Position numbers and translations under genes: made by a program | The notes under the pieces: generated by a model | Seen by the model: only the letters and a program-made list of their open reading frames with translations | Told to the model about the DNA's origin: nothing | Database searches by the model: none | Shown here: positions 1,681-32,219 of the stretch, in pieces | How the letters are laid out: the number at the start of each line of letters is the position of its first letter | Position numbering within the stretch: position 1 is the first letter of the stretch | NCBI GenBank assembly: GCA_017561205.1 | Contig: JAFZDL010000030.1 | Span: 1-32,219, forward strand | Direction: 5' to 3' | Length of the DNA: 32,219 nucleotides | From: Oscillospiraceae bacterium | GTDB taxonomy: Bacteria; Bacillota; Clostridia; Oscillospirales; Oscillospiraceae

Positions 1681-1684
1681 AGGC

Positions 1685-3583: not shown

Positions 3584-3635
3584 AGGGAATTCCTCCTTTA
3601 TTCTTGGGGATTGCGGTGTATCCACAGTACCCCAT

Positions 3636-3658: not shown

Positions 3659-3679
3659 CTACTTAACACAATTCGTCAA
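3650..3679 (-). promoter_or_regulatory. sigma-A-type promoter of the E2-E3-E1 operon
   Basis: On the minus strand, TTGACG (3674-3679) is followed after 18 bases by a consensus TATAAT (3650-3655). This places the start of transcription about 60 bases upstream of the E2 TTG codon. Confidence 0.6.
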
Positions 3680-3705
3680 TAGTGATTTGCTACAAAAATA
3701 CAAAA

Positions 3706-3734
3706 CCGAACCTGTCCGTTATAAACAGGTTCGG
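3706..3734 (-). terminator. terminator after the DeoR-family gene
   Basis: Ten-base stem CCGAACCTGT / ACAGGTTCGG with a nine-base loop. On the minus strand it is followed by TTTTGTATTTTT. It separates the regulator gene from the E2 promoter, so the E2 operon has its own promoter. Confidence 0.75.
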
Positions 3735-3739
3735 CATTT

Positions 3740-4489: not shown

Positions 4490-4503
4490 AATGCACCTCT
4501 TGA

Positions 4504-4538
4504 TGTTATAATGTTAAATATTCATAACAAATATAACA
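4504..4538. promoter_or_regulatory. candidate operator of the DeoR-family regulator
   Basis: TGTTATA (4504-4510) and TATAACA (4532-4538), with an extra ATAACA at 4524-4529. They overlap the regulator's own -10 box (4530-4535). The same heptamers flank the E2-operon -10 box. A single ATAACA half-site (4614-4619) also overlaps the lplA -10. Confidence 0.45.
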
Positions 4539-4558
4539 CTATCACAAATTCTTGTCAA
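4530..4558 (-). promoter_or_regulatory. sigma-A-type promoter of the DeoR-family gene
   Basis: On the minus strand, TTGACA (4553-4558) is followed after 17 bases by TATATT (4530-4535), upstream of the ATG at 4489. Confidence 0.6.
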
Positions 4559-4586
4559 GAGAATTTTATATTTTTTATATTTTTCA

Positions 4587-4615
4587 TTGACAAACGGGAA
4601 ATACATCTTTATAAT
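4587..4615 (+). promoter_or_regulatory. consensus sigma-A promoter of lplA
   Basis: TTGACA (4587-4592), a 17-base spacer and TATAAT (4610-4615) give a perfect consensus. Transcription would start near 4622, only about 24 bases before the chosen lplA start. Confidence 0.75.
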
Positions 4616-4645
4616 AACAAAAGATTTTTTCAAATGAGGTTTTCT

Positions 4646-5629
4646 ATGATCACCAGGCTTCTCATTTATGAAACCATGGAAACAAATCCCCATCGGAATT
4701 TGGCTACCGAAAAGCATTTGATGGGCATTACCCAGCCCGGAGAATGTCTGCTCTATCTGTGGCAGAATAAAAACACCGTAGTCATCGGCAAAAACCAAAA
4801 TCCCTGGCTGGAGTGCCGCACTTCCCTGCTGGAAGATGAAGGCGGTGTGCTGGCTCGGAGACTGTCCGGCGGCGGCGCAGTTTTTCACGATTTGGGAAAT
4901 TTGAATTTTACCTTTATTATGTGTAAAGAAGATTACGATCTGGATAAACAACTTTCTGTCATTCAGACTGCCTGTGCCATTGCCGGCATCCAAGCGAAAA
5001 AGTCCGGTCGAAACGATGTGCTGGCTGACGGGCGAAAGTTCTCCGGCAACGCTTTCTATCAAAACCGCACCCACGCCTATCACCACGGCACATTGATGGT
5101 AGATGTGGACAAGGACAAGCTGGGCAGGTATCTTAGCCCTCCCAAGGCCAAGCTGGAAGCAAAAGGTGTGACCTCTGTCCGTTCACGGGTAGTAAACTTA
5201 ACAGAGCTGAATCCGGAACTGACCATTGCCAAAATGAAGGCCAATATGGCCCAAGCATTCAATAAAGTTTACGGTATGGTCGCAGAGCCTCTGACCCTTA
5301 CTGAGGCTGATTTTCATACAATAGAAAACCTGAAGGAAGAATATGCTTCCTGGGAGTATTTATACGGCACTCCCCTGCCCTTTACTTTTGAATGCGAAGC
5401 CCGGTTTGACTGGGGTTATATTCATTTGCAGTTAGAGGCAAAGGATGGCATTATCCGGGGCGCAAAAGTCTACACCGACGCAATGGACTGGGCATTTCCA
5501 CAAGCAGTAGAAAACGCCTTATTGGGCTGTCGGTTTGAAACCGCTGCAATGCAGAAAGCATTGCATAATTTGCACGATAAATCTATTGTCGAAGATCTCT
5601 GCCGGTTATTGGCTGAGCAGGTCTTATAA
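4646..5629 (+). CDS. lplA: lipoate-protein ligase A
   Basis: A 327-residue enzyme that activates lipoate with ATP and attaches it to lipoyl-domain lysines. Family signatures are NLATEKHLM near the N-terminus, KNQNPW, the lipoate-binding RRLSGGGAVFHDLGNLNFTF, and GRNDVLADGRKFSGNAFY. A C-terminal accessory domain of about 80 residues follows. The ATG at 4646 is preferred: a GAGG site lies seven bases upstream, and the open frame extends artificially far upstream through the antisense of the regulator. An in-frame ATG at 4634 adds four residues. It is divergent from the DeoR-family gene and close to a complex with three lipoyl domains per E2, so that E2 is the probable substrate. No lipoate synthase or octanoyltransferase gene is in view. 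Confidence 0.93.
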   Translation: MITRLLIYETMETNPHRNLATEKHLMGITQPGECLLYLWQNKNTVVIGKNQNPWLECRTSLLEDEGGVLARRLSGGGAVFHDLGNLNFTFIMCKEDYDLDKQLSVIQTACAIAGIQAKKSGRNDVLADGRKFSGNAFYQNRTHAYHHGTLMVDVDKDKLGRYLSPPKAKLEAKGVTSVRSRVVNLTELNPELTIAKMKANMAQAFNKVYGMVAEPLTLTEADFHTIENLKEEYASWEYLYGTPLPFTFECEARFDWGYIHLQLEAKDGIIRGAKVYTDAMDWAFPQAVENALLGCRFETAAMQKALHNLHDKSIVEDLCRLLAEQVL

Positions 5630-5648
5630 AAAAACTGGAGGTAGCATC

Positions 5649-7271
5649 ATGAACCGTTTATCAACGAAATACACTTCTATGGTAGCCAATCTGAGCCTGG
5701 ACGAGCTGATTGGTCAGCTGATGTGCGTCAGCATCTCTGCAAGTCTTACACCGGAGCAATTTGAAGAATACTGCAAGCAAAGAAAGCCCGGCGCTATTTT
5801 TTCGCTTCGCAGAACCGGTGAGGAGTTCAAGACTTATCTGGAAATCGCCAACCGCTACTCCCCTATCCCCGTAATCGTAGCCAGCGACGTTGAACACGGC
5901 CCCAGCATGGGCTTATTAGGCGAACGCGCCTTACCGGACAGTATGGCATGGGGCGCTTGCAATGATACAGAGCTTCTAAAAAAGGCAGGCGAAGAAACCG
6001 CGAAGATCTGCCGCAAAAACAGTGTCCACTGGACCTTTGCGCCGGTGGTTGACTTGAATACCAACCCCAACAATCCGGAAACCAATATCCGTTCCATCTC
6101 CGATGATCCTTCCCGTGTTATCTCTATAGCCGGCGCCCACATGGAGGGTATGCTGGAAAAGGGCTATATGGTAACTGCCTGTAAGCACTTTCCCGGTCAG
6201 GGTATGGACGACAGAAATTCTCACTTCGTTACAATAAACAACCCCATGTCTAAGCGGAAGTGGTTCAGCACCTATGGCGCCGTGTACAAAGAAATGATTC
6301 GCCGGGGCACCCCCTCCATTATGGTAAGTCACATTACCCTGCCCGCGTTCCAGCCCCAGGACGAAGGCCCGCTGGGTCCTCTCCCTGCTACGCTAAGCAA
6401 AACTTTGATGACAGATCTTTTGAAAGGAAAATTAGGATTCAAGGGTTGTATTGTATCTGATGCTATGAGTATGATCGGCGTTTCCTCCCACATTCCCATT
6501 GATGAGTTGATCGTCAAATTCTTTAATGCCGGCGGCGATATGTACCTGTTCCCCCGGCCAATTGAATACGATTCCTTAAAAAAGGCTGCTGAAGATGGCA
6601 CTGTATCCATGGAACGGCTACGAGATGCCGCCGCCCGGGTTATGTACCTGAAGGACCGGGCAAGACTTTTCGAGGATCAAGCAAAGGTTCTGGCCGAAAT
6701 TGAAGACGATATTCCTATTGGCGATACCGCGCAGAAGATTGCCGACAAGAGTATAAATCTGATCCGAAATCAGGATAATGTCATCCCTGCAAAGCTTCCC
6801 AAAGGCAGCAAGATTCTGTTGGTGAACGCAATGGAGGATTTCTTCCACAAGCCCCCTGCCGGTAATGAATTCGAACCTTTGAAACAGGCATTAACCGAGG
6901 CCGGCTACCAGGTAACAGAGCTGTTCACCCCCACCTATGTCCAGATCAAGGAAGAACGGGATAAATATGATATGATCCTTGTGAATCTCCGCTACAGTTC
7001 CCGGAATTGCCATGGAGGCTCTCTGCGAATTGCATGGGACAATATTGACGCTTTCTGGCATGGCTACCTTTTCCAGCATCCCAAGGTGATTTTAACTTCC
7101 TTTGGCGACCCCTACAAGATTCACGAGTTCCCCTATGTGAAGACATACATCAATGCTTATTCTGATACAGAAGACTCCCAAAGAGCCGTCGCCAAAGTAA
7201 TCCTTGGTCAGATTCCGGCCCAGGGCAAGTGCCCGGTAAACTTCCCTCCCTATTTCTCTCGAGAAGATTAA
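5649..7271 (+). CDS. glycoside hydrolase family 3, beta-N-acetylhexosaminidase type
   Basis: A 540-residue GH3 protein. KHFPG lies at residues 179-183. The loop DRNSHF carries His192, equivalent to the acid/base histidine of NagZ-type enzymes. IVSDAMSM carries the probable nucleophile Asp271. Residues 1-370 form the TIM barrel. The last ~150 residues resemble the second GH3 domain found in longer NagZ-like proteins. No signal peptide is visible, so it probably acts in the cytoplasm on muropeptide or chitooligosaccharide GlcNAc ends. The ATG at 5649 is preceded by GGAGG and lies 19 bases after the lplA stop, so the two are probably co-transcribed. The exact substrate is not determinable. Confidence 0.88.
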   Translation: MNRLSTKYTSMVANLSLDELIGQLMCVSISASLTPEQFEEYCKQRKPGAIFSLRRTGEEFKTYLEIANRYSPIPVIVASDVEHGPSMGLLGERALPDSMAWGACNDTELLKKAGEETAKICRKNSVHWTFAPVVDLNTNPNNPETNIRSISDDPSRVISIAGAHMEGMLEKGYMVTACKHFPGQGMDDRNSHFVTINNPMSKRKWFSTYGAVYKEMIRRGTPSIMVSHITLPAFQPQDEGPLGPLPATLSKTLMTDLLKGKLGFKGCIVSDAMSMIGVSSHIPIDELIVKFFNAGGDMYLFPRPIEYDSLKKAAEDGTVSMERLRDAAARVMYLKDRARLFEDQAKVLAEIEDDIPIGDTAQKIADKSINLIRNQDNVIPAKLPKGSKILLVNAMEDFFHKPPAGNEFEPLKQALTEAGYQVTELFTPTYVQIKEERDKYDMILVNLRYSSRNCHGGSLRIAWDNIDAFWHGYLFQHPKVILTSFGDPYKIHEFPYVKTYINAYSDTEDSQRAVAKVILGQIPAQGKCPVNFPPYFSRED

Positions 7272-23076: not shown

Positions 23077-23220
23077 TTAGAACAGCGTGGTAATCCAATA
23101 AATAATACCATACACCACCCTCGCAACTGTACCATAAACGATTACAGGGCCTGCAATTTTGAACATATTTGCGCCGATGCCCAGGATATATCCTTCTGCA
23201 ACTGTCAAGTTAGGACCCAT
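23077..23220 (-). CDS. 47-residue hydrophobic repeat-family protein, copy A
   Basis: First of six copies or fragments of the same small gene in the last 9 kb. The protein starts MGPNLT, has AEGYILGIGANMF, then a hydrophobic segment with AGPVIVYG and VVYGIIYW, ending in TTLF. About 25 C-terminal residues would span a membrane once. Full-length copies are all exactly 144 nt and differ mainly at third codon positions, so the frame has been selected. There is no strong ribosome binding site; CGGAG lies about 22 bases upstream. It is convergent with RNase J and divergent from the structured-RNA element. No known family is recognised. Confidence 0.6.
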   Translation of the reverse strand: MGPNLTVAEGYILGIGANMFKIAGPVIVYGTVARVVYGIIYWITTLF

Positions 23221-23233
23221 AAGTTTTTTAATA

Positions 23234-23262
23234 TTGATTTTTCTCCGATAAAGTGTTATACT
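23234..23262 (+). promoter_or_regulatory. promoter of structured RNA element 1
   Basis: TTGATT (23234-23239), a 17-base spacer and TATACT (23257-23262). The predicted transcript begins near 23269, exactly at the first base of the outer pairing arm. Confidence 0.55.
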
Positions 23263-23268
23263 AACTAT

Positions 23269-23459
23269 GCCAAACCAACTGAATAATGCAGAAAGTTTAT
23301 TTTTATAGGGGATATTATACCCTTTTACGACCATAAACTGAATTTGATAAAAATGCAAATTCTGGTTCTGTGGTTGTAAAGGATACTTTCTGCAGAGTTG
23401 ATTTGGCGACTATCGGAGTTTGCATTTTTTGTGCGGTTACTTCGGTAGCCGCACTTTTT
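23269..23459 (+). ncRNA. structured RNA / attenuator-like leader, copy 1
   Basis: Predicted transcript of about 190 nt. Its 5' arm GCCAAACCAACT (23269-23280) faces AGTTGATTTGGC (23396-23407) with one mismatch. Nested inside, TGCAGAAAG (23287-23295) pairs with CTTTCTGCA (23386-23394) and GAATTTG (23340-23346) with CAAATTC (23356-23362). It ends in a terminator: ten-base stem, TTCG loop (23431-23454), then TTTTT. The superinfection-immunity gene's AAGGAG site follows six bases after the T-tract. A second copy with the same architecture is at 26806-26998. It could be a cis-acting attenuator or a free small RNA. It matches no class I recognise. Confidence 0.5.
23431..23459 (+). terminator. UUCG-capped intrinsic terminator upstream of a cargo gene
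   Basis: Stem GTGCGGTTAC / GTAGCCGCAC with one G-U pair and a TTCG loop, then TTTTTATTTT. It precedes the start codon at 23478 by 19 bases. Repeated almost identically at 26970-26998. Confidence 0.8.
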
Positions 23460-23477
23460 ATTTTAAGGAGAGATTTT

Positions 23478-24053
23478 ATGTTAGCAGAAGTACAACCAGT
23501 CGGTAGTAATGGAACTGTGGTTTTCGTTACCATCCTCCCTTTCATTCTACTAATCGGACTAATCGGATTTATGGGTTATTTTATTATTAAACTTCTCAAA
23601 ACACACTTTGCAAATGTACGAACCGGAAAATCCAGAAAGTTCAATCGTGTATTTCTTATACTATGTGCCTTAGGCATACTGATTGAATTCTTACTCATCA
23701 GCTTTATAAATGCTTGGGATTTTCGCTCTTCTGAGATCATACCTTCCATGATTCTCTTATTCATTCTTGGTATCATTACACAGTGTCTTTACTTTATTCC
23801 CTACCTCGTAGCTAACAAAAAAGGGCATCCTCAAGAAACAGCCATTTTCATTTTGAATCTATTCGCAGGATGGACTATTATCGCTTGGATTATTGCATTG
23901 GTTTGGGCGTTTACGCAACCTAAAATTACAAACTCACAACAAGCCCTTATAGGCAATGCTGATGAACTATTAAAATATAAACAACTCCTTGATAATGATG
24001 TAATATCTCAAGAAGAATTTGACACGAAGAAAAAGCAAATTCTTGATATGTAA
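23478..24053 (+). CDS. superinfection-immunity-like membrane protein with C-terminal SHOCT domain
   Basis: A 191-residue protein with about four membrane helices (residues 14-38, 57-78, 88-113, 122-146). The last two contain YFIPYLVANKKGHPQ and LNLFAGWTIIAWIIALVWA, the pattern of the superinfection-immunity (T4 Imm-like) family. Residues 160-190 (LLKYKQLLDNDVISQEEFDT) form a SHOCT domain. The ATG at 23478 has AAGGAG eight bases upstream. Its leader is the structured RNA with a terminator, so expression may need antitermination or readthrough. Lower GC than the housekeeping genes. A role against phage or plasmid entry is possible from family name only. Confidence 0.8.
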   Translation: MLAEVQPVGSNGTVVFVTILPFILLIGLIGFMGYFIIKLLKTHFANVRTGKSRKFNRVFLILCALGILIEFLLISFINAWDFRSSEIIPSMILLFILGIITQCLYFIPYLVANKKGHPQETAIFILNLFAGWTIIAWIIALVWAFTQPKITNSQQALIGNADELLKYKQLLDNDVISQEEFDTKKKQILDM

Positions 24054-24054
24054 A

Positions 24055-24087
24055 CAAAAGGCTTGACCGATTTGGTCAAGCCTTTTG
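24055..24087. terminator. bidirectional terminator
   Basis: Fourteen-base perfect stem CAAAAGGCTTGACC / GGTCAAGCCTTTTG with a five-base loop between convergent genes. The AAGGCTTG core recurs in the terminators at 26055-26098 and 31496-31524. Confidence 0.85.
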
Positions 24088-24089
24088 TG

Positions 24090-24338
24090 TTATTTTCGGA
24101 TGGTGTGCATCAATCCGTCGGAGCCTTCCTCTACGTGGAGAACGAAGTTAAATTTATCCCCCTCCACACTAAGCCAGAAGTCTTCCTCCGGGAATATGGG
24201 ATTATTGGGGTCGAAGAATTTGGCGCCGCTGGTTTGCTTGCATTCTTCGATACCTTTCTGCAGATCGATAGGTGTACCCTCCACCAGGGCCTTGGCGGCT
24301 TTTGCACCCTCGATCAGCTCAAGAATCGAATATTCATC
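24090..24338 (-). CDS. 82-codon tail in frame with the AIM24-family gene after a TAG codon
   Basis: After the TAG that ends the AIM24-family gene, the same frame stays open for about 80 more codons. It reads as ordinary protein (SILELIEGAKAAKAL, CKQTSGAKFFDPNNPIF, DFWLSVEGDKFNFVLHVEEG). No ATG begins it; the first plausible start is a GTG at 24284 with a weak AAGG upstream. It is either a separate short gene with a poor start, a domain cut off by a nonsense mutation, or a product of stop-codon readthrough. No homologue is recognised. Confidence 0.4.
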   Translation of the reverse strand, partial: DEYSILELIEGAKAAKALVEGTPIDLQKGIEECKQTSGAKFFDPNNPIFPEEDFWLSVEGDKFNFVLHVEEGSDGLMHTIRK

Positions 24339-25067
24339 CTACTCTCCGAACTTGATATTGATGCCACCGGAGCTGTCGCCGTCCTTGACCTTGATGTAGG
24401 GATTGATGCGTGCAGCAGTGTTAATTACCGGCATGGACTGGATATACACCTTACCGGGGCCGGTAATTGTAGTATGGAACAGACCCTCACCGCCCAGGAA
24501 GATATTCTTTGCGCCCTGGACCATCTGAATATCCATGGTGCAGCTTTCGCTCATAGCGGCAAGGTAGCCGGTGTCCACCACGATGCTCTGGCCTGCTGCC
24601 AGTTCGTATTCTTTGCAATGGCCGTCAATTTCCAGGAAGACCATACCGTCGCCGGTGATTTTCTGCATAATAAATCCTTCACCGCCAAAGAAGCCTTTGC
24701 CCAGCTTCTTTTGGAAATACACAGACAGCTCCAGGCCCTTTTCCATTGCCAGGAAGCCACGCTTCTGCACGATAATGCCGTTACCGGGGGTCACCTGGTA
24801 AGGGATAATGCTGCCAGGGAAGGAAGATGCAAAGGCAATCATTCCAGTGCCGCCCATCGCGGTATATTCATTCATAAACAGAGATTCGCCGGAGAACATT
24901 CTGCCAAGCATCTTTTTGATACCGCCGCCGGTATTGGTGTCCATTTTTATATTGGGGGACATCCAACTCATAGCGCCGCTTTCGGTGCAGAGGCTCTGGC
25001 CCGCTTCGGGATAGCAGATGACTACAGGCAGGTTGCCGCCTTCGATTTCGTATTTGATCATATCCAT
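24339..25067 (-). CDS. AIM24 / TIGR00266-family protein
   Basis: A 242-residue all-beta protein. It has the family's duplicated double-psi-like pattern, rich in glycine turns: PEAGQSLCTESGAMSWMSPN, MGGTGMIAFASSFPGSIIP, FFGGEGFIMQKITGDGMVFL, FLGGEGLFHTTITGPGKVYI. Bacterial members are cytoplasmic and have no established reaction; one member is the mitochondrial AIM24. The ATG at 25067 has AAAGGA six bases upstream. The frame ends in TAG with open sequence beyond it. It may be co-transcribed with the radical SAM gene 46 bases upstream. Confidence 0.88.
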   Translation of the reverse strand: MDMIKYEIEGGNLPVVICYPEAGQSLCTESGAMSWMSPNIKMDTNTGGGIKKMLGRMFSGESLFMNEYTAMGGTGMIAFASSFPGSIIPYQVTPGNGIIVQKRGFLAMEKGLELSVYFQKKLGKGFFGGEGFIMQKITGDGMVFLEIDGHCKEYELAAGQSIVVDTGYLAAMSESCTMDIQMVQGAKNIFLGGEGLFHTTITGPGKVYIQSMPVINTAARINPYIKVKDGDSSGGINIKFGE

Positions 25068-25113
25068 TCTATCCTTTCTGTTTTATTTTGCTATTTTTAG
25101 TATAGCAAATGAT

Positions 25114-25986
25114 TTAAGGGTTTTCAACATCACGCAGGTACTGATTTAAAAGATTCAGCGTTTTCTTTTTATCCGCCGACCACAACGGCGCAATCAGGTC
25201 CTTTTTGGCGCCGTCGCCGGTGATACGGTGGACAACGGTTTCTGCCGGCAGAACTGCGATACAGGCCTTTAGGATTTCGCCATATTCTTCCAGGGTCAGG
25301 GCTGTTACTTTGCCGGCTTCATATTCGTTTGCTATGCGGGTGTTTTTGAGAATGTGCAGCAGGTGGAATTTCACCCCGTCCGTGCAGCAGGCCACTGCAT
25401 AGCGGGTGGTTTCCACTGGATTGTCGGCAGGCAGGCCGATGATGATATGGGTGATCACTTCTATGCCTGCGTTTTTCAAGCGGGAAACGGCATCTGCGTA
25501 AACTGCGGTTTTGTAGCCACGGTTGATGTAGTCCGCTACCCCATCGTCAGCAGTTTGCAGGCCCAATTCCACCGTGACAGGCTTGATTTTGTTCAGTTCT
25601 TTCAGTAATTCTATGGTGCTGTCGGGCAGGCAATCCGGGCGGGTGGCAATATTCAAGCCCACGATATAATCCGGGGCGATAGCCTCATAAAAGAGGGTTT
25701 TCAGGCTGTCATAGGGGGCGTATGTATTGGTGAAGGACTGAAAATAGGCGATGTATTTTCCGTCTTTGATCTTGTCGGCTACCCGCTTTTTCGCCTGTTT
25801 CAACTGGACAGCAATGTCGGTTCCGTGTTCGGCAAATTCCCCGCCACCCAGGGCAGAGCAAAAGATACAACCGCCGGTGGACACAGTACCGTCCCGGTTG
25901 GGGCAGGTAAAGCCCCCGTCTAAGGATAGCTTATACACCTTGCAGTCAAATTTTTCCTTGTAATAATCATTTGCGGTTTTATACAT
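25114..25986 (-). CDS. TIGR01212-family radical SAM protein (YhcC-like)
   Basis: A 290-residue radical SAM enzyme. FTCPNRDGTVSTGGCIFC gives the cluster cysteines Cys28, Cys40 and Cys43, with the wide C-x11-C-x2-C spacing that marks the TIGR01212/YhcC group. Later conserved stretches are GLNIATRPDCLPD, VELGLQTADDGVADYINRGY and HIIIGLPADNP. Substrate is unknown; RNA modification is suspected for the group. The ATG at 25986 has a GCAGGTG site. Probable operon with the AIM24-family gene downstream. Confidence 0.9.
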   Translation of the reverse strand: MYKTANDYYKEKFDCKVYKLSLDGGFTCPNRDGTVSTGGCIFCSALGGGEFAEHGTDIAVQLKQAKKRVADKIKDGKYIAYFQSFTNTYAPYDSLKTLFYEAIAPDYIVGLNIATRPDCLPDSTIELLKELNKIKPVTVELGLQTADDGVADYINRGYKTAVYADAVSRLKNAGIEVITHIIIGLPADNPVETTRYAVACCTDGVKFHLLHILKNTRIANEYEAGKVTALTLEEYGEILKACIAVLPAETVVHRITGDGAKKDLIAPLWSADKKKTLNLLNQYLRDVENP

Positions 25987-26054
25987 AACATCACCTGCTT
26001 TTTACTCTTCAATTATAATAGCAACATATCAAAATCGCAATATATTTGCTGAAT

Positions 26055-26098
26055 GAAATGATAAAGGCTTGACCGATTGGCCAAGCCTTTATCATTTC
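26055..26098. terminator. bidirectional terminator at the end of the zeta-like kinase gene
   Basis: Seventeen-base perfect stem GAAATGATAAAGGCTTG / CAAGCCTTTATCATTTC around a ten-base loop. It overlaps the stop codon of the minus-strand gene. Confidence 0.75.
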
Positions 26099-26649
26099 AT
26101 TTTCTCGATCAATTCCAAAAGCCACTTGGGACTTTTTTGTCCTATAGTCTGCAATTCTCCGTTTTTATACTTTGCAACAGTAACAAAACCGTTGTCGTTA
26201 TCGTAAAAAGTAGCTTCGTTACAATATGGCAAGACTGTCAGCAGATCCTCAAACCGTTTGGAAAAGCGATTGGCCACAGTATCGGTGTTGATATTATGAC
26301 CACCTCTTTTTACCCGGTTTTCAATGCGGAGCAAGCTTTCCTCCATGGTATCAAGACCGACATAGTACAATCGAATATAGTAGTCCTTTGCGATCGCCCG
26401 CTTGATCGTGTCGAGCGTCTTTCTGCCGGAAAGGGTCGTTTCCTGGGTGAAACAAATCTCCTTTTCCAAGCACTCATCAATCAGAGCAATGGCTTTCTTA
26501 CCGCCCTCCAGCAAATTGCCACTACAACCAGCCGTGATCTTATCCACATCTATAATTTTTCCGAGGTTGTCGATCTCTGTCCGCAAAACACCGGTCAAGC
26601 TGCTTTTTCCGCAACCATTAACACCGGCAACGATGGTGTATGTTTTCAC
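26092..26649 (-). CDS. zeta-toxin-like P-loop kinase
   Basis: A 185-residue protein. Walker A is GVNGCGKSS at residues 9-17, and IIDVDKITAG supplies the acidic residue expected in zeta/PezT kinases that phosphorylate UDP-sugars. TLSGRKTLDTIKRA, YYVGLDTMEESLLRIENR and VKRGGHNI match the lid and arginine regions of the zeta-like family. The GTG at 26649 has GGGAG upstream; the earlier ATG frame lacks a site. No epsilon/PezA-type antitoxin gene is adjacent, so it may be an orphan kinase rather than a toxin. Its promoter lies at the junction with a broken small-protein copy. Confidence 0.78.
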   Translation of the reverse strand: MKTYTIVAGVNGCGKSSLTGVLRTEIDNLGKIIDVDKITAGCSGNLLEGGKKAIALIDECLEKEICFTQETTLSGRKTLDTIKRAIAKDYYIRLYYVGLDTMEESLLRIENRVKRGGHNINTDTVANRFSKRFEDLLTVLPYCNEATFYDNDNGFVTVAKYKNGELQTIGQKSPKWLLELIEKMK

Positions 26650-26682
26650 AAAACACACTCCCTTTACATGAATAGTACTTGC

Positions 26683-26711
26683 ATTATAGCACAGCATGAG
26701 CTTTTTTGCAA
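26683..26711 (-). promoter_or_regulatory. promoter of the zeta-like gene
   Basis: On the minus strand, TTGCAA (26706-26711), a 17-base spacer and TATAAT (26683-26688). The -35 ends three bases before repeat homology begins at 26714. Confidence 0.6.
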
Positions 26712-26713
26712 CA

Positions 26714-26741
26714 CTTCTGCTTGTGTCAACTTAGGACCCAT
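26714..26741 (-). pseudogene. 47-residue repeat-family protein, copy F (5' fragment)
   Basis: Only the first nine codons (MGPKLTQAE) remain. Identity to other copies stops at 26714, where the sequence changes into the promoter region of the zeta-like gene. The upstream flank (ACACGAATAT before the ATG) is conserved with copies B and D. Confidence 0.6.
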
Positions 26742-26770
26742 ATATTCGTGTTCCATTAGAGAATTTTTTC

Positions 26771-26799
26771 TTGCTATTTCTCCAAAATAGTGTTATAAT
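26771..26799 (+). promoter_or_regulatory. promoter of structured RNA element 2
   Basis: TTGCTA (26771-26776), a 17-base spacer and TATAAT (26794-26799). It has the same placement relative to the outer RNA arm as in copy 1. Confidence 0.6.
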
Positions 26800-26805
26800 A
26801 TTTAA

Positions 26806-26998
26806 GCCAAACCAACCTAATAATGCAGAAAGTTTAATTTTTTTAGGGATATTATACTCTTTTAACCCATAGAATGAATTTGATAAAAATGCAAATTCTG
26901 ATTCTGTGGGTATAAAAGTATATGCTTTCTGCGGAGTTGGTTTGGCGACTATCGGAGTTTGCATTTTTTGTGCGGTTACTTCGGTAGCCGCACTTTTT
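26806..26998 (+). ncRNA. structured RNA / attenuator-like leader, copy 2
   Basis: Second copy of the element at 23269-23459. GCCAAACCAAC (26806-26816) pairs perfectly with GTTGGTTTGGC (26936-26946), where copy 1 has one mismatch. TGCAGAAAG (26824-26832) pairs with CTTTCTGC (26925-26932). The 3' third, through the UUCG terminator at 26970-26993 and its T-tract, is almost identical to copy 1, whereas the left half has diverged. It leads into the BspA-like gene's GGAGG site at 27006-27010. Confidence 0.5.
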
Positions 26999-27035
26999 AT
27001 TTTATGGAGGTTTTATATAAAAAAGACTACACTAT

Positions 27036-28130
27036 TTGCTGCCCCTAATTCTCATCATTCTATTGGCTGTCATACTGTCCAGAAAAGCTTATGCAGCAAC
27101 AGTAGATTCCGGTACTTATGGTAAGAATATAACATGGACACTGGACAGCAATGGAACTATGACAACCTCCGGCACCGGCGAGAGGGGTGACCTTGGGGAA
27201 GAAGAGCGTGATCACTGGTGGAATATAAAAAATTCAATCAAAACAGTTGTCATTAAAGAGGGCATTACCAGTATCGATGTTTCGGCATTTAGTAACTGCA
27301 CCAACTTATCCAGTATCACTATTCCCAAAAATGTTACAAGCATTGACATTCAGGCTTTTGAGCAATGCTCTAGCCTAGGTGGATTTTGGGTAGACGAAGC
27401 AAACCCCCAATACAGCAGCGATCAATATGGTGTGTTATTTAGCAAGGACAAAACCAAACTTCTAAAGGCCCCTCAAACTCTTACCGGAAGCTATACCGTC
27501 CCGGATGGAGTAACAACACTTGGCGCACTTACCGACTCCGATTCTTCTAACCCCGCTTTCAATGATTGTACCAAGCTAACCAGTGTTACACTACCTGATA
27601 GCGTAAATGTAATTGATATCGCTGCATTTGCAGGCTGCAGCAGTTTAACTAAGGTTAATATTCCCAATGGTGTAAAAAAGATAGATTATATTACCTTTAT
27701 GAACTGCACCAGTTTAACATCCATTACCATCCCAGATAGTGTAACAGATATAAGTAATTATGTTTTCAGCGGTTGCAATAATTTAACCCAAATCACCCTT
27801 GGGAAAGGCATACAGACGATTTATGCGAATGCCTTTTGGGGGTGCGACAAACTATGGCATGTGCTTTATACCGGAACAGAGAACGAATGGAACAATATCA
27901 ATTCTGACCCACAAGGTTATGGAGATTATGAAGGCAACGAATCATTACTATCAGCTACTCGTCATTATAACTGCACAGGAAATGAGATTCTTGACCTAAC
28001 AAACAAAAAATGTAGCATCTGCCTTGCCAACTGCAACCACAACTGGGATAGCGGCAAGGTAACCAAGGTGTTTAAAAAATGCTATTCTCTGACCCCAAAA
28101 GAATGCCGCAAAGGGCGAAATCGCAGCTAA
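27036..28130 (+). CDS. BspA-like leucine-rich-repeat protein, 5' end probably frameshifted
   Basis: A 364-codon frame with LRR_5 (BspA/TpLRR) repeats of about 23 residues, for example LTSITIPDSVTDISNYVFSG and SSLTKVNIPNGVKKIDYITF. Such proteins are usually surface-exposed and adhesive. The start is damaged. GGAGG at 27006-27010 is followed by an ATA, not ATG, at 27017, in a frame reading KKTTLFAA. An extra C in the CCCC run at 27042-27045 shifts that frame out of the hydrophobic signal segment (LILIILLAVILSRKAYA). The listed start is the TTG at 27036, which lacks a nearby ribosome binding site. The C-terminus (CNHNWDSGKVTK, then basic residues) also looks cut. Probably a decaying gene. Confidence 0.6.
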   Translation: MLPLILIILLAVILSRKAYAATVDSGTYGKNITWTLDSNGTMTTSGTGERGDLGEEERDHWWNIKNSIKTVVIKEGITSIDVSAFSNCTNLSSITIPKNVTSIDIQAFEQCSSLGGFWVDEANPQYSSDQYGVLFSKDKTKLLKAPQTLTGSYTVPDGVTTLGALTDSDSSNPAFNDCTKLTSVTLPDSVNVIDIAAFAGCSSLTKVNIPNGVKKIDYITFMNCTSLTSITIPDSVTDISNYVFSGCNNLTQITLGKGIQTIYANAFWGCDKLWHVLYTGTENEWNNINSDPQGYGDYEGNESLLSATRHYNCTGNEILDLTNKKCSICLANCNHNWDSGKVTKVFKKCYSLTPKECRKGRNRS

Positions 28131-28148
28131 CACAAAAAGGAGAAACCT

Positions 28149-28323
28149 ATGTCACGGACGAGTATAAAAGGGGATCTGTTTGCGATACTCAGTGCGGTCA
28201 TCTAAGGATGTCCATTCGTATTTATAATGAAGGTGTCAACCCACCCTCGTGTGTTTGCGTAATGTGATCGGCGCTTCTCTGATGATTGCGGTCGCCGATG
28301 CCAAACAAGCAAAAAAAGCGTGA
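28149..28323 (+). pseudogene. remnant of an EamA/DMT-type transporter gene
   Basis: An AAGGAG site precedes an ATG whose 18-codon frame (SIKGDLFAILSAVI) resembles the first helix of drug/metabolite transporters. It ends in TAA but continues with GCPFVF in the same frame. Shortly before the terminator another frame reads NVIGASLMIAVADAKQAKKA and stops, resembling a transporter C-terminus. The middle of the gene is missing. Assignment is tentative, based on the character of the two ends. Confidence 0.4.
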
Positions 28324-28350
28324 TGAGAGGTACTCTCATCACGCTTTTTT
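28314..28350. terminator. bidirectional terminator
   Basis: Perfect twelve-base stem GCGTGATGAGAG / CTCTCATCACGC with a three-base loop, flanked by As on the left and Ts on the right. It separates the transporter remnant and the amidohydrolase. Confidence 0.85.
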
Positions 28351-29242
28351 ATCGATATACGCGTAAGGCCGTGTCGTGCATCAGGTTGGTCAGTTCGGTG
28401 TCGGTGAAATAGCCTGACTCGCGCACGGTATCGATCAGTGCCTTGTAACTCAAATGTTTGAACACACCGGGGCAATCGGTCCCCCACATCATGTGATCCG
28501 CGCCGACAATGTCCATCACCGCGCGCAGATACGGGTAGTGGTTGCCGTGTTCATTCGGGTGCAAACTTGCGGTGTCAAAAAACACGTTGTCTCGCGCTAG
28601 TTGCCGAATATACGCAAGGCGCTCATCGTTATGCCCGTCGGTGTTGGACGGGAACAACGAATGTGCCACCACAAAGGTCAGGCGCGGATGACGGGAGAGC
28701 ATGGTGAGCAAACGGTCAATGCGAAAACTCGCCGTCCCCCACGTACCCGTGTCCACCGTCACGGTGATACCGCGTTCTTCGCACTGCGCGAGATAGCGGT
28801 CGATTGGCGGTGCGGTCAGATCGAAATCGGGGTGATACCCCGTGAGTCCGAAATGTTCGCTAAGATCGAGTTTGAGACTGCGAAACCCCAACCGATCGGT
28901 GAGGTTATCGAAAATGCGGTCGGCCTCGGCACAATACGGGTCGAACGCGCCCACACCGACAAAACGATCGGGAAACCGCGCGACCGACGCGGCAATAAAT
29001 GCGTTTTGCAACCCATAGTTGGGACTTTGCAACAACACCGCGCGGTGCACATCGGCCTCATCCATCAACCGAAGCAGTGTTTCGGGCATAAATTCCTTGT
29101 TGCCGTGTTCGGGGCGAAGCAGTTGTTCCACGTCGCCGTTGGCCCATTCCACCATACCACCGCCCAGTGCACGTGCTTCACCGCGCGGACCAAACCCCGT
29201 CAGGTGTTCATAAATGTGTGCGTGTGCATCGATGATGTTCAC
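28349..29242 (-). CDS. amidohydrolase-family metal-dependent hydrolase
   Basis: A 297-residue TIM-barrel hydrolase of the amidohydrolase-2 type. The N-terminal IIDAHAHIY gives His7 and His9 as metal ligands, FVVAHSLF a further histidine, and MMWGTDCPG the C-terminal aspartate. Substrate is unknown; relatives include decarboxylases and lactonases. The GTG at 29242 is preceded by GGGGTGG. The 441-codon frame extending to 29674 is an artefact that fuses this gene to a broken small-protein copy through a GC-rich insertion. Its sequence is rich in CG dinucleotides (CGCG, TCG, ACG codons), unlike every neighbour, which suggests recent transfer from another lineage. Confidence 0.82.
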   Translation of the reverse strand: MNIIDAHAHIYEHLTGFGPRGEARALGGGMVEWANGDVEQLLRPEHGNKEFMPETLLRLMDEADVHRAVLLQSPNYGLQNAFIAASVARFPDRFVGVGAFDPYCAEADRIFDNLTDRLGFRSLKLDLSEHFGLTGYHPDFDLTAPPIDRYLAQCEERGITVTVDTGTWGTASFRIDRLLTMLSRHPRLTFVVAHSLFPSNTDGHNDERLAYIRQLARDNVFFDTASLHPNEHGNHYPYLRAVMDIVGADHMMWGTDCPGVFKHLSYKALIDTVRESGYFTDTELTNLMHDTALRVYR

Positions 29243-29319
29243 CGCCGCCACCCCTTTGCCGTTGATGCTACCAGTATACCACGCCCACGGCAAAAACGCA
29301 ATAGATTCTTGCAGTGGGT

Positions 29320-29415
29320 CGATGGGGGCATCGACCCCTACACAAATTGCGTGGATTTCGTAGGGGCGGATGCCCACATCCGCCCGAGAGCCCCTTTTAC
29401 ACAAAGGGGCTTCTA
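29320..29415. repeat. palindromic GC-rich intergenic repeats
   Basis: Two adjacent palindromes: GGGTCGATGGGGGCATCGACCC (about 29316-29337, arms GGGTCGATG/CATCGACCC) and GGGGCGGATG / CATCCGCCC (29363-29386). They are followed by AGCCCCTTTT / AAAGGGGCTT. The motif GTAGGGGCGG recurs as AGGGGCGGCA at 30567-30580 (minus strand). Non-coding; some may act as terminators. Confidence 0.5.
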
Positions 29416-29418
29416 TCG

Positions 29419-29674
29419 TTAAAATAATGTTGTTACCCAATAAATAACCCCATACACCACACTTGCTACCACGCCGTAGACGATAATAGGTCCGGCGATG
29501 GGGAGCGAGCCGACTGCCACCGGTGGCGGAAGGAAGGAGGCGAGCGAGTGGCCGCGGTCGACAGATGCCAAGGAGCGCCGTCGACGCAGGCAGATGTCGG
29601 GCACCGCAACAGGAGAACATCTTCGCGCCGACGCCCAGGATGAAGCCTTCTGCTTGTGTCAACTTAGGACCCAT
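29419..29674 (-). pseudogene. 47-residue repeat-family protein, copy B, interrupted
   Basis: The ATG at 29674 begins MGPKLTQAEGFILGVGAKMF, identical to the family. After that the gene is split by about 112 bp of GC-rich palindromic sequence (about 29500-29614). The other half (AGPIIVYG to TTLF, stop at 29419) continues in a different frame. Upstream lies a second ATGGGTCCTAA block, 25 bases away. Removing the insertion restores a full-length copy, so the insertion is younger than the gene. Confidence 0.65.
29500..29614. mobile_element. GC-rich palindromic insertion inside small-protein copy B
   Basis: About 112 bp absent from copies A, C and D. It contains GCCACCGGTGGC and GTCGAC repeated in GCGGTCGAC...GTCGACGC, giving foldable arms. 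It has no coding capacity and no clear target-site duplication. It is probably a small non-autonomous (MITE- or REP-like) element; exact edges are uncertain by a few bases. Confidence 0.45.
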
Positions 29675-29699
29675 TACTTCGTGTTCTATTAGGACCCAT
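29665..29699. repeat. TTAGGACCCAT direct repeat pair, 25-base period
   Basis: TTAGGACCCAT (29664-29674) and TTAGGACCCAT (29689-29699) repeat with a 25-base period. The unrelated next cassette begins immediately after. Copy D shows the same arrangement, with the second unit AGGACCCAA at 31686-31694. Copy A has only one unit, and copy C has a degenerate one. Candidate boundary or recombination sequence of the cassette units. Confidence 0.5.
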
Positions 29700-29702
29700 A
29701 AA

Positions 29703-29734
29703 AAAACTGCCTACTAAACAAAGTAGGCAGTTTT
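29703..29734 (-). terminator. terminator after the small XRE gene
   Basis: Stem CTGCCTACT / AGTAGGCAG flanked by A and T runs. On the minus strand it ends in a run of Ts and overlaps the stop codon of the XRE gene. Confidence 0.75.
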
Positions 29735-29981
29735 ATTTATAATGCGGCTTTGAATTGTTAGTCAAGCCCAAAATATAGTCAGTAGAAGTTTTGTATAACT
29801 TAGCAAGACGAATCAACACATCTGTGGGTAAATCTCTTAACCCTCGCTCATAGCGGCTATACTGCGATTGCTTCATTCCCAAGTAATCCGCTATCTGCTG
29901 CTGTGTAAAATCGTGATCTTCACGCAAATCCCTTAATCTTGCGTAATAATTGTCCAAATTTACACCAACTTTCATAACCAT
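29733..29981 (-). CDS. small XRE-family regulator
   Basis: An ~82-residue protein that is essentially one helix-turn-helix domain: RLRDLREDHDFTQQQIADYL and SQYSRYERGLRDLPTDVLIR, ending in STDYILGLTN, the usual tail of short Cro/C1-type regulators. The start is uncertain between ATG at 29981 and ATG at 29975, and neither has a strong ribosome binding site. The gene diverges from the zinc-ribbon membrane protein, whose -35 overlaps this start region. It is therefore well placed to repress that gene and itself. Confidence 0.85.
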   Translation of the reverse strand: MVMKVGVNLDNYYARLRDLREDHDFTQQQIADYLGMKQSQYSRYERGLRDLPTDVLIRLAKLYKTSTDYILGLTNNSKPHYK

Positions 29982-29987
29982 TTGGTG

Positions 29988-30016
29988 TTGACATCGTATC
30001 ATAATTATGTTATATT
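29988..30016 (+). promoter_or_regulatory. promoter of the zinc-ribbon membrane protein gene
   Basis: TTGACA (29988-29993), a 17-base spacer and TATATT (30011-30016). It abuts the start of the divergent XRE gene. Confidence 0.65.
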
Positions 30017-30068
30017 TTAGCTATCTTAGAACCGTTCGGTTATATATTATTTAAAAGGGGGTATCACT

Positions 30069-30551
30069 ATGTTTTGTAACATTGGTGGTAAAATTAAGGG
30101 ACTTGCGCGAATCATTTTTATTATTGAGGCCGTTTTTGCAGCAATTGCAGCATGTATTTTCCTTTTTGATGAAGATACAATCTTGATTGGTTTCCTTATA
30201 CTTATTGGTGGATTCCTGAGTGCCTGGATCAGCACCTGGATTTTATTTGGATTTGGCGAACTGATTGAAAAAACAACAGAAATCGCCAACAACACAAAGA
30301 CTACCACTGCAACAGCCGCTCAACGGACAGAGAACTTCTCTGCCGAACAGTGTGAAAATGTCGATAGCGATATTAATGTCGTTACCGATAATAATGTTAC
30401 CGATCCACAGCCCCAAACAGGAATATGTCAGTTGTGCAATAGCGAATCGCATTTAACATATTGTAAAATCAAAGATAATTTAGGCATAAGATATCGCAAT
30501 ATTTGCGACGAATGCATTGCCAAACACAATGCAATTCCTGCAAAAAAATAA
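30069..30551 (+). CDS. hypothetical membrane protein with C-terminal four-cysteine zinc-ribbon-like motif
   Basis: A 160-residue protein. Two hydrophobic helices (residues 13-33 and 38-62) contain IIFIIEAVFAAIAACIFLF and ILIGFLILIGGFLSAWIS. A low-complexity Thr/Asn/Asp-rich linker follows. The C-terminus has CQLC and, 23 residues on, CDEC, a pattern expected for a treble-clef or ribbon zinc site. The ATG at 30069 has AGGGGG upstream and a good promoter. It pairs with the divergent XRE gene. No family is recognised. Confidence 0.72.
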   Translation: MFCNIGGKIKGLARIIFIIEAVFAAIAACIFLFDEDTILIGFLILIGGFLSAWISTWILFGFGELIEKTTEIANNTKTTTATAAQRTENFSAEQCENVDSDINVVTDNNVTDPQPQTGICQLCNSESHLTYCKIKDNLGIRYRNICDECIAKHNAIPAKK

Positions 30552-30559
30552 CAAAAAGC

Positions 30560-30578
30560 GGGCGGCAGATTGCCGCCC
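30560..30578 (-). terminator. terminator between the membrane protein gene and small-protein copy C
   Basis: Stem GGGCGGCA / TGCCGCCC with a three-base loop. On the minus strand it is followed by GCTTTTTGTTATTTTT. It lies immediately after the stop of copy C. Confidence 0.75.
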
Positions 30579-30722
30579 CTATATTATGGTGCCTAGCCAG
30601 TAGATAAATCCATACACAACACTGGCACTTACGCCGTAGACGATGACAGGGCCGGCGATAGTGAACATCTTCGCGCCGACGCCCAGGATGAAGCCTTCTG
30701 CTTGTGTCAACTTAGGACGCAG
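30579..30722 (-). CDS. 47-residue hydrophobic repeat-family protein, copy C (ATG replaced by CTG)
   Basis: A complete 48-codon frame with the family sequence (AEGFILGVGAKMF, AGPVIVYG, SVVYGFIYW, ending GTII). The first two codons are CTG CGT instead of ATG GGT, and the conserved upstream block is missing. Compared with copy D over codons 13-41, 22 codons differ synonymously and only two non-synonymously. Either CTG still initiates, or this copy has recently lost its start. Confidence 0.5.
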   Translation of the reverse strand: MRPKLTQAEGFILGVGAKMFTIAGPVIVYGVSASVVYGFIYWLGTII

Positions 30723-30813
30723 TGTTTTTTGTCGAATTAGCTCAAATTCTTTCGATATAACTCAGATGATAGGGATTTACATCAATACACAGTAAAAAAA
30801 ATATTTACATTGA

Positions 30814-30842
30814 TTCGTTCATATGGTATAATTTATACCGAT
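30814..30842 (+). promoter_or_regulatory. promoter of the esterase gene
   Basis: TTTACA, a 17-base spacer and TATAAT (within about 30803-30833), upstream of the GGAGG site. The stretch 30723-30800 shows no gene. Confidence 0.45.
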
Positions 30843-30863
30843 TTAATTGCGGAGGTATGAACT

Positions 30864-31493
30864 ATGAACGTTATTGTTCATTCCGGCTCCGATGCCGTTT
30901 TTCCTTTTATTTCCTTTATACCTGAGAGCACAAGCGAACGTCCTGCGTTGATCGTTCAACTGCACGGCGCCGGTGAACGTGGAAACGGTGACGCTGATTT
31001 GGACAATGTTTTAAAACATGGATTTTCACATATTGTAAACGATAACAATCTTAAGGACTGCATCCTCGTAATGCCCCAATGTCCCTCTGATTCTTTTTGG
31101 GTAGCAAAAATTGAAAGTCTTAAAGCATTTATCGACCGAATTGTAAGCCTCTATAACATCGACACCAGCAGAATCTACCTCTGCGGTTTGAGTATGGGCG
31201 GTTTCGGAACCTGGTATACTGCTATGGCGTATCCCGAATTATTCGCAGCAATTGCACCTTGTTGCGGCGGCGGAATGGCGTGGAATGCGGACGTACTAAA
31301 AATGCCGATCTGGACTTTTCACGGAAAAGAGGATGCAGTAGTATCACCTAATCAGACACTCGAAATGATTGAGAAATTGAAAGATATTAATCCAAATTTC
31401 AAGTACACATTATATGATGGTATAGGACACGATTCTTGGATAAAGGCATTTTCCGAAGAATTACTCGAGTGGCTTTTAGCCCAATGTAAATAA
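30864..31493 (+). CDS. alpha/beta-hydrolase, esterase/PHB-depolymerase-like
   Basis: A 209-residue serine hydrolase. LHGAGERG (residues 33-40) is the oxyanion-hole motif, GLSMGG places the nucleophile at Ser110, GKEDAVV gives Asp157 and GIGHDSW gives His189, completing the triad. The compact size and lack of a signal peptide suggest an intracellular carboxylesterase or feruloyl/acetyl-esterase-like enzyme; substrate is not determinable. The ATG at 30864 has GGAGG upstream. It is followed by a bidirectional terminator and the convergent small-protein copy D. Confidence 0.88.
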   Translation: MNVIVHSGSDAVFPFISFIPESTSERPALIVQLHGAGERGNGDADLDNVLKHGFSHIVNDNNLKDCILVMPQCPSDSFWVAKIESLKAFIDRIVSLYNIDTSRIYLCGLSMGGFGTWYTAMAYPELFAAIAPCCGGGMAWNADVLKMPIWTFHGKEDAVVSPNQTLEMIEKLKDINPNFKYTLYDGIGHDSWIKAFSEELLEWLLAQCK

Positions 31494-31495
31494 CG

Positions 31496-31524
31496 AAAAA
31501 GGCTTGCAAAATGCAAGCCTTTTT
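31496..31524. terminator. bidirectional terminator between the esterase and copy D
   Basis: Thirteen-base perfect stem AAAAAGGCTTGCA / TGCAAGCCTTTTT with a three-base loop. The right arm (CAAGCCTTTTTGT) also occurs alone at 23065-23077 beside RNase J, without a left arm. Confidence 0.85.
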
Positions 31525-31525
31525 G

Positions 31526-31669
31526 TCATAACATTTGCATTATCCAATAAATCAAGCCATAAACCACAGAAGCGGCCACTCCATACACAATCACTGGTCC
31601 TGCAATTGTAAACATCTTTGCGCCAACGCCTAAGATGAAGCCTTCTGCTGGTGTCAAGTTAGGACCCAT
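31526..31669 (-). CDS. 47-residue hydrophobic repeat-family protein, copy D
   Basis: Complete copy with an ATG start: MGPNLTPAEGFILG, GAKMFTIAG, VIVYGVAASVVYGLIYW, ending MQML and TGA. N-terminal residues 1-20 are amphipathic and residues 22-44 are hydrophobic. Directly upstream, out of frame, is a block (TTGGGTCC...ACACGAATAT) that would encode a short 11-codon peptide (family form MGPNRTRIYGS in copy B-like flanks) whose stop overlaps the start of this gene. No Shine-Dalgarno sequence is visible. Confidence 0.6.
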   Translation of the reverse strand: MGPNLTPAEGFILGVGAKMFTIAGPVIVYGVAASVVYGLIYWIMQML

Positions 31670-31755
31670 ATATTCGTGTTCTGTAAGGACCCAATTCTAA
31701 AATAATTTACTTCAACCCGGAAATATGTTATTATAAGAAAAAGGAGGTTGGTATT

Positions 31756-32139
31756 ATGGAGTATGTTGTGATTCCCGATACTGCAATCTTTGCCATTAAT
31801 ATCGGCAGGCAGGATAATGAATCAAGCAATATTGTATATCGTGATGAAAATGGTAGATTGCACTCTATTGATTTTGAAATCTGCGCTGCCAATTATTCGG
31901 CCGAACATAATACCGCATCCAAGAACTGTATTGGCGAGCGAAACAGAAAGGAACTCTACTTCATCTTCTATACCAGCGGTATTAAGACTAAAGTAGTATT
32001 CGAAAAAATCCAAGTAGGTAATATTCTCCGCTATCATCGTTTGAGTGGTTCCATCGTAACCCGCTTTCTCGAATTGCGGAATTCTATCATCAAAACAAAG
32101 TATACAACTCATGCGCTATCATGGGAAGAAGGGTTATGA
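31756..32139 (+). CDS. hypothetical protein
   Basis: A 127-residue soluble protein with no recognised family. It opens with beta-strand-like sequence (YVVIPDTAIFAINIG) and contains NGRLHSIDFEICAANYSAEH, KELYFIFYTSGIKTKVVFEK and a C-terminal helix (IVTRFLELRNSIIKT). The ATG at 31756 has AAGGAGG upstream. Its last codons form the left arm of a terminator hairpin. It is convergent with small-protein copy E, repeating the cassette pattern. Confidence 0.65.
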   Translation: MEYVVIPDTAIFAINIGRQDNESSNIVYRDENGRLHSIDFEICAANYSAEHNTASKNCIGERNRKELYFIFYTSGIKTKVVFEKIQVGNILRYHRLSGSIVTRFLELRNSIIKTKYTTHALSWEEGL

Positions 32140-32164
32140 CCCATACCGGTCATAGCCCTTCTTC
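32125..32164. terminator. terminator overlapping the last hypothetical gene's stop
   Basis: Seventeen-base stem GAAGAAGGGTTATGACC / GGTCATAGCCCTTCTTC with one non-Watson-Crick position, followed by Ts. Confidence 0.75.
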
Positions 32165-32165
32165 T

Positions 32166-32219
32166 TTACAGTATTGTTGTTATCCAATAGATTAAGCCAT
32201 AAACTACCGATGCAGATAC
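32166..32219 (-). CDS. 47-residue hydrophobic repeat-family protein, copy E (partial, runs off window)
   Basis: The last 17 codons and stop of another copy (SASVVYGLIYWITTIL). It follows the hypothetical gene and its terminator in the same convergent arrangement as copies A, C and D. The start lies beyond the window. Confidence 0.6.
   Translation of the reverse strand, partial: VSASVVYGLIYWITTIL

Follow-up and report, generated by a model that had tools for sequence, protein, structure and literature searches.

The window analysed here is one complete contig of 32,219 nucleotides (nt) from an Oscillospiraceae bacterium (JAFZDL010000030.1 in assembly GCA_017561205.1), and its right-hand part contains six copies or fragments, A to F, of a repeat which a preliminary description had taken for a gene of an undescribed 47-residue membrane protein family carried by mobile cassettes. 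All six lie on the minus strand, and copies A, C and D were found where that description placed them and are 144 nt each. The repeat is the last ~39 codons of the sporulation gene spoVAC preceded by a short foreign head. The array runs off the end of the contig at copy E (32166..32219), where the 3' part of a spoVAC tail remains and beyond which a spoVAC body or another cassette is expected. Between E and D lies a passenger gene for 127 residues without a Pfam match (31756..32139, plus strand), followed by the end arm GTCCTAACTTGACACCAGCA of D (31646..31665), the crossover GAAG (31642-31645) and the displaced spoVAC 3' end of D (31526..31645). The D-C cassette carries an alpha/beta hydrolase (PF02230; 30864..31493, plus strand) and is followed by the arm GTCCTAAGTTGACACAAGCA (30699..30718) and spoVAC 3' end (30579..30698) of C. 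The C-B cassette carries a 160-residue passenger without a Pfam match (30069..30551, plus strand) and a second open reading frame (ORF) matching HTH_3 (29733..30002, minus strand), followed by the arm of B, also GTCCTAAGTTGACACAAGCA (29651..29670).

The displaced spoVAC 3' end of copy B (29419..29650) is split by an insert of ~112 bp, which is a dispersed repeat with eight matches in the genome including itself and was rejected as a component of the system. This insert (29500-29610; GC-rich, ~111 nt) is also present inside the displaced spoVAC tails of loci L119/L236, L103 and L122, by eye at the same spot, as would follow from a target preference or from inheritance with the cassette. To the left of B lies an amidohydrolase-like passenger (PF04909; 28349..29260, minus strand, start approximate), and to the right of F a BspA-type leucine-rich repeat protein (PF13306; 27036..28130, plus strand). 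F itself is a cassette end alone (24-bp match; arm at 26718..26737) with no spoVAC tail after it, and a zeta-toxin-like gene comes next (26092..26697, minus strand). The same direct junction of a zeta-toxin-like gene to a tail-less cassette end (26714-26741 in the window) is present at L099, i.e. in two genomes. The stretch from F to A holds a radical SAM protein (PF04055/PF16199; 25114..25986, minus strand), an AIM24 family protein (PF01987; 24339..25067, minus strand) and, as passenger, a superinfection-immunity-like/SHOCT membrane protein (PF14373 and PF09851; 23478..24053, plus strand). The most distal arm, GTCCTAACTTGACAGTTGCA (23197..23216), precedes the most distal spoVAC 3' end, copy A (23077..23196). 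Copy A is probably the oldest end, a reading that follows from its position only, since Ribonuclease J was not found as a conserved neighbour in the relatives' loci compared.

Copy D matched the Pfam family PF03862 (SpoVAC_SpoVAEB) with an E-value of 1.8e-8 and a score of 35.1 bits (curated cut-off 25); the match covers only profile positions 85-117 of 117, and copy D is a fragment of a SpoVAC member rather than a member gene itself. Following a suggestion made in the preliminary description, we searched with the 47-residue sequence of copy D. In its own genome, matches were confined to the window contig and to copies A-E, and no intact spoVAC was found elsewhere in this genome (83% complete). 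Of 60 relatives, 54 matched, mostly over residues 8-45, which there terminate a frame of 145-229 residues. The query also matched three plasmid records, two of which have spoVAC annotated at the place, while six records of phage collections, all human faecal and unannotated, matched the spoVAC tail. Based on the relatives' frames, the plasmid annotation and the Pfam match, we conclude that the repeat is a spoVAC 3' end behind a foreign head.

The preliminary description had also argued for selection on the 47-residue protein from 22 synonymous and two non-synonymous differences between C and D in codons 13-41. This count is exact, and the other pairs are weaker over the same codons (A-D 11 synonymous and seven non-synonymous, A-C 12 and seven). 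In codons 1-8, A, C and D differ solely non-synonymously (C-D four, A-C four, A-D one), whereas the synonymous and non-synonymous counts in codons 9-47 are 22 and seven for C-D, 14 and 12 for A-C, and 13 and 12 for A-D. Thus, signs of protein-level constraint are confined to the tail, and the earlier claim of selection at the protein level holds for this part.

With the Glu of 'AEGF' as the point of alignment, the sequence of intact genes is ...gaattcaaaacc|GARGG and that of most copies, with variants, ...GTCCTAnnTTGACAnnnGCA|GARGG; at the protein level, the insertion point in SpoVAC is ...FKT|EGF.... A scan of 84,980 genomes for the end pattern gave 137 exact matches in 116 stretches, compared with ~4 matches expected by chance in 257 Gb (an estimate assuming 18.5 specified bases and an even base composition). 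At 126 of the 137 matches (in 107 stretches), the sequence runs on in frame as SpoVAC; among the remaining 11, several have frameshifted or truncated tails, L099 has the same tail-less junction as F, and L140 looks like chance. A promoter-like TTTACA-N16-18-TATAAT pointing into the passenger, i.e. antisense to spoVAC, was present at 69 of 135 ends, and in the sense direction at none (two of the 137 ends lie too close to a locus edge and were omitted).

Together with the window, these stretches make 117 loci, in 58 of which an intact spoVAC is visible. Where displaced-tail matches occur together with an intact spoVAC, all 77 are downstream of the gene and on its strand (a tail split in two was counted twice). 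Units longer than 250 bp (n=118) have a median length of 970 bp (quartiles 723 and 1396, range 424-6342), and among 100 units measuring 350-2600 bp, 94 have their longest ORF antisense to spoVAC. The cargo is diverse: 120 unit ORFs fall into 72 clusters, and 15 of 49 passenger ORFs chosen for Pfam from the window and other loci had no match at E 0.01, while the matches, some of them below the curated cut-off, include Fic, MscS, M28 peptidase, GH43, LGT, HAD, zeta-like and leucine-rich repeat proteins. We compared 39 pairs of homologous stretches, one member of which adjoins an intact spoVAC whereas the other follows a displaced tail. Homology begins, on the left, no more than 15 nt from the crossover in 29 of them, or in 25 of 35 once four pairs with L150, the contig of which starts just before its tail, are removed. 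For example, L068 and L122 have a common 1.8-kb unit (90% over 1803 nt from -2), and L079 and L110 a common 1.0-kb stretch (93.5%). From these homology edges, a unit consists of tail, passenger and end, and is cut at or near GARGG. The claim that the repeats are carried by mobile cassettes is upheld, with recurring units docked in spoVAC.

In total, these observations support that the repeats are very probably 3' ends of spoVAC that were displaced when cassettes inserted one after another at a specific point of the gene, each insertion restoring it. A cassette would comprise a spoVAC 3' end and one or more passenger genes, usually antisense and often with a promoter, together with the conserved end GTCCTAnnTTGACAnnnGCA. 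Integration would cut spoVAC at GARGG, and the cassette's own 3' end would join the gene body, such that a full-length SpoVAC is kept while its last ~40 residues are replaced and the old 3' end is pushed downstream, behind the passenger. Repeated insertion would build an array in which the newest cassette adjoins spoVAC. The enzyme is proposed to be a triplet of large serine recombinases, which is carried by bigger elements using the same site and may act in trans on cassettes without a recombinase. We think that the units probably move as small cassettes.

Such an exchange would also account for the selection signal, because each insertion would replace the last ~40 residues of SpoVAC. We compared the proportions of non-synonymous (pN) and synonymous (pS) differences, keeping pieces of at least 31 residues and pairs with pS above 0.05. 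Mean pN/mean pS was 0.152/0.714 (0.21) in 58 unique intact tails and 0.210/0.728 (0.29) in 152 unique displaced tails, and stops occur in the first 34 codons of none of the 58 intact and five of the 152 displaced tails. The synonymous excess noted in the preliminary description is explained by tails that are, or once were, a functional SpoVAC C-terminus. These values fit tails that are selected while they end a working SpoVAC and relaxed afterwards. Moreover, with codons aligned, the similarity of genes at third positions in the last segment of the gene body was correlated with the similarity of their tails; r was 0.18 among the 52 genes with arrays and 0.52 among the 17 without, and for the segment before last the values were 0.03 and 0.37. 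This decoupling of body and tail is supporting evidence that tails may be exchanged.

A candidate for the docking enzyme was found in genome G036, which is the sole one among 14 array-bearing genomes with three adjacent large serine recombinases. At this locus, L049, all three proteins have PF00239 and PF07508, and ~100 bp lie between the last recombinase gene and a cassette end with a spoVAC tail. L118, L147 and L158 encode orthologues in the same order (identity 63-67% for the first, SR0, 61-65% for the second, SR1, and 51-54% for the third, SR2). Two contigs of IMG/VR have the site, and both carry the triplet; accordingly, a phage origin was rejected, as these two triplet elements are the only site-bearing stretches there. 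A scan of IMG/VR with the SR1 protein gave nothing, a weak negative because it also missed both triplet contigs. Among the matches listed from an SR1 search of 394 genomes of the order, there was one genome, G528 (80% identity), and its triplet likewise lies directly next to GTCACTACTTGACACAAGCA|GAAGG with a spoVAC tail; this locus, L248, was thus found via the protein and not via the site. The spoVAC tail of G528 comes after the helper element, the sequence beyond it reads by eye like spoVAD and spoVAE, and an effect of the element on operon expression is possible. Altogether, the triplet abuts the site in L049, L118, L147, L158, L246, L247 and L248, which are six distinct elements (L118 and L246 being the same), with SR0/SR1/SR2 in conserved order and with 51-82% identity to L049 by position.

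The element in L118, from a roe-deer genome record, and in L246, an IMG/VR contig, is identical at 5658 of 5680 nt (99.6%) to the left of the crossover. To the right, the two agree for 5 bp (GAGGG) and first differ at the sixth base; their tails match at 91 of 117 positions, and past the tail no similar stretch was found at the matching place. Thus, the same element adjoins two distinct spoVAC tails and has its breakpoint at the site, which strengthens the assignment of the triplet. For the other triplet-element pairs listed, 65-77% of aligned DNA is common. In contig C7 of genome G453, further spoVAC tails come after the helper's end and tail. More distant, paralogous triplets (33-43% identity) in G453 C3 and G455 C281 had no spoVAC end in the stretches fetched. 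In total, we conclude from sequence comparison that the triplet is quite probably the docking enzyme. We also infer that visiting elements act in trans, that the cassettes pass through circular intermediates, and that insertions occurred in the order of the array.

We considered three other explanations for the repeats. That they are a free-standing small membrane protein family on cassettes, as the preliminary description proposed, draws on the ATG-initiated 47-codon frames of A and D and on the prevalence of synonymous changes between C and D. However, the sequence is the C-terminus of SpoVAC, the frame of copy C starts with CTG, some copies are broken, and the head codons of A, C and D differ solely non-synonymously. 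Across the 137 sites, the would-be ORF opens with CTG in 50, ATG in 40, GTG in 36 and another codon in 11, a Shine-Dalgarno-like motif precedes none, and three have in-frame stops within the head. We conclude that the head is cassette-end DNA, and on the start-codon, ribosome-site and head-codon evidence together with the Pfam match we reject the free-standing protein, which we regard as highly improbable. A different possibility is that the arrays are decayed remnants, cis-mobilizable elements (CIMEs), of larger elements that had used the spoVAC site; each would have been reduced to roughly one gene, without ever having been mobile as a small cassette. The triplet elements do use the same site, and tandem accretion of integrative and conjugative elements (ICEs), integrative and mobilizable elements and CIMEs is known (PMC5704250), to which the pile-up at one site is alike. 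As to the CIME hallmarks of attachment sites retained on both sides and of absent recombinase and transfer genes, units are bounded by a tail on one side and a cassette end on the other, and 113 of the 116 stretches have no serine recombinase at E 1e-8. By contrast, independent deletions are expected to be ragged, whereas the same short units are found again at other loci and in other positions, most of their edges falling at the crossover, the middle half of units spans 723-1396 bp, and about half of the ends carry the antisense promoter; we therefore consider decay of larger elements unlikely.

Alternatively, the cassettes could owe their movement to another recombinase, either a tyrosine integrase or an unrelated enzyme of the serine class, or to homologous recombination among the tails. 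The tails are homologous, and tyrosine integrases are present in 14 of the 14 array-bearing genomes and PF07508 serine recombinases in 13. However, when 39 ORFs from the centres of recombinase loci of these genomes were compared with 131 array loci, only six loci matched: the four triplet loci, L099 and L156. The place matched in L099 is a DUF436 protein, so the query, which also matched L156, was a mere recombinase neighbour. A tyrosine integrase as driver was rejected, since none of the many in these genomes was identified in array loci; likewise, no intI was identified next to an array among the six of 131 loci matched, although one may lie at a distance, as many loci end inside the array. 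Other serine recombinases of the same genomes (G000 C72, G014 C26, G036 C11) were also rejected, being 21-30% identical to the triplet and having no spoVAC end in the stretches fetched. Homologous recombination is at odds with tails of ~117 nt that have diverged at synonymous sites (mean pS ~0.7), and a triplet element has moved with its breakpoint at the site. We thus hold movement by any of these other routes to be rather improbable, and favour successive insertion of cassettes that restore spoVAC.

Several observations weigh against this favoured reading. In 10 of the 39 homologous pairs, edges lie 19-123 nt past the crossover. The body-body control for third-position similarity is also weak (r 0.32 with and 0.15 without arrays), and pairs are non-independent. 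The triplet is rare, with three of 116 stretches, one of 40 genomes (next best 36% identity) and one of 394 order genomes (at most three candidates scored per genome, among the matches listed), and most arrays have no helper in view. The genomes are fragmentary (80 of 80 titled stretches are described as metagenome-assembled genomes) and arrays break contigs, as in the window. Neither an excision product nor a circle was seen, nor any within-species pair with and without a given cassette. Among 26 array-less loci compared there was no clean empty site and a single close pair, L256/L068; this best pair of unoccupied and occupied loci is not clean, as L256 has its own 604-residue gene after spoVAC.

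SpoVAC belongs to the complex that dipicolinic acid traverses (PMC13059800). The displaced tails are its last ~39 codons and under similar constraint; unlike SpoVAC, they have neither gene body nor conserved start. The proposed docking would work in a manner similar to staphylococcal cassette chromosome mec (SCCmec) and the Enterococcus cassette chromosome (ECC), in which large serine recombinases (CcrAB) act at a single position within the 3' region of rlmH, a conserved gene, and cargo is variable (PMC6222049); here, the target is spoVAC, the putative enzyme is a triplet and not a pair, the median unit is ~1 kb compared with 21-78 kb for ECC, and there are arrays that contain no recombinase. 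Streptococcal ICEs are described in PMC4701971 as having three adjacent serine integrases in the same orientation near the element end, clustering by position, with tiny direct repeats (2-8 bp there, GARGG here) and the targets mutT, traG and hsdM. Three adjacent serine integrases, orthologous by position and near the end, characterize the helper elements here, which are truncated by contig ends, but not the cassettes; moreover, the streptococcal ICEs disrupt their targets, whereas spoVAC is restored and small cassettes use the same site. The gene-intervening elements skin, SPbeta in spsM and gin in gerE are likewise mobile elements in sporulation genes, but they interrupt the gene until it is rejoined in sporulation, while spoVAC stays full length.

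Integrons are the textbook route by which bacteria collect single genes in arrays, and their cassettes, mostly one-gene units of ~1 kb that share a conserved end but vary in cargo, line up in arrays at an anchor. The arrays described here are similar in unit size and form. They differ in that no integrase gene was found in array loci (many of which end inside the array), in that cassettes carry the end of a host gene and often a promoter, and in that the recombinase would be of the serine and not the tyrosine class. Tentatively, and at slightly less than even odds, the arrays may represent a system parallel to integrons and run by serine recombinases, in which mostly single-gene units of ~1 kb, often with their own promoter, would move as circles, dock in the spoVAC end via trans-acting helper triplets, form reorderable arrays and swap the C-terminus of a spore channel protein. 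This looks like an independent route to gene arrays in spore-forming gut bacteria, with another recombinase class and a sporulation gene as anchor. It would provide an addressable catalogue of mobile passengers, many without a Pfam match, explain a class of apparent small-protein genes as docking ends, and suggests that the SpoVAC C-terminus is exchanged between strains by mobile DNA. No literature on spoVAC with a serine recombinase was found, nor, judged from titles and abstract openings among the papers listed, any description of such spoVAC cassette arrays; the part of PMC6907783 consulted names spoVAC only as island cargo. As far as these searches show, the combination of features is new.

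Samples from goat, sheep, cattle, deer, yak or buffalo gut are named in 53 of 80 titled stretches among the 116 (counted by eye). At L039 (4645-12593), a unit of 8.4 kb separates spoVAC from the first displaced tail, and the ORFs of this unit resemble, by eye, Fic and a type I restriction system. Some cassettes contain an ORF for a Y1 (IS200-like) transposase (L138 5369-5875, PF01797 at the cut-off; four related ORFs), and a sense-oriented passenger of ~452 residues with a weak HEAT match below the cut-off recurs in L068 (4897-6255, turned to spoVAC), L036 (3026-4384) and L039 (13898-15256). In the array-less relative L052, an ORF that looks by eye like a tyrosine integrase (1607-2803) lies ~1.6 kb before spoVAC. 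The window had no Rfam match at gathering score that would indicate a structured RNA at the repeats. Finally, a ~240-nt leader, 86-90% alike in three cassettes, precedes passengers in the window (26764-27018 and 23227-23480) and in L096 (4980-5217), and matches no Rfam family at gathering score. Its part at 26795-27005 is predicted to fold strongly (minimum free energy -71.5, z -7.5) into a terminator-like hairpin and a long stem with GCCAAACCAAC/GTTGGTTTGGC as its closing sequences, and the leader is possibly an unknown RNA or an attenuator.

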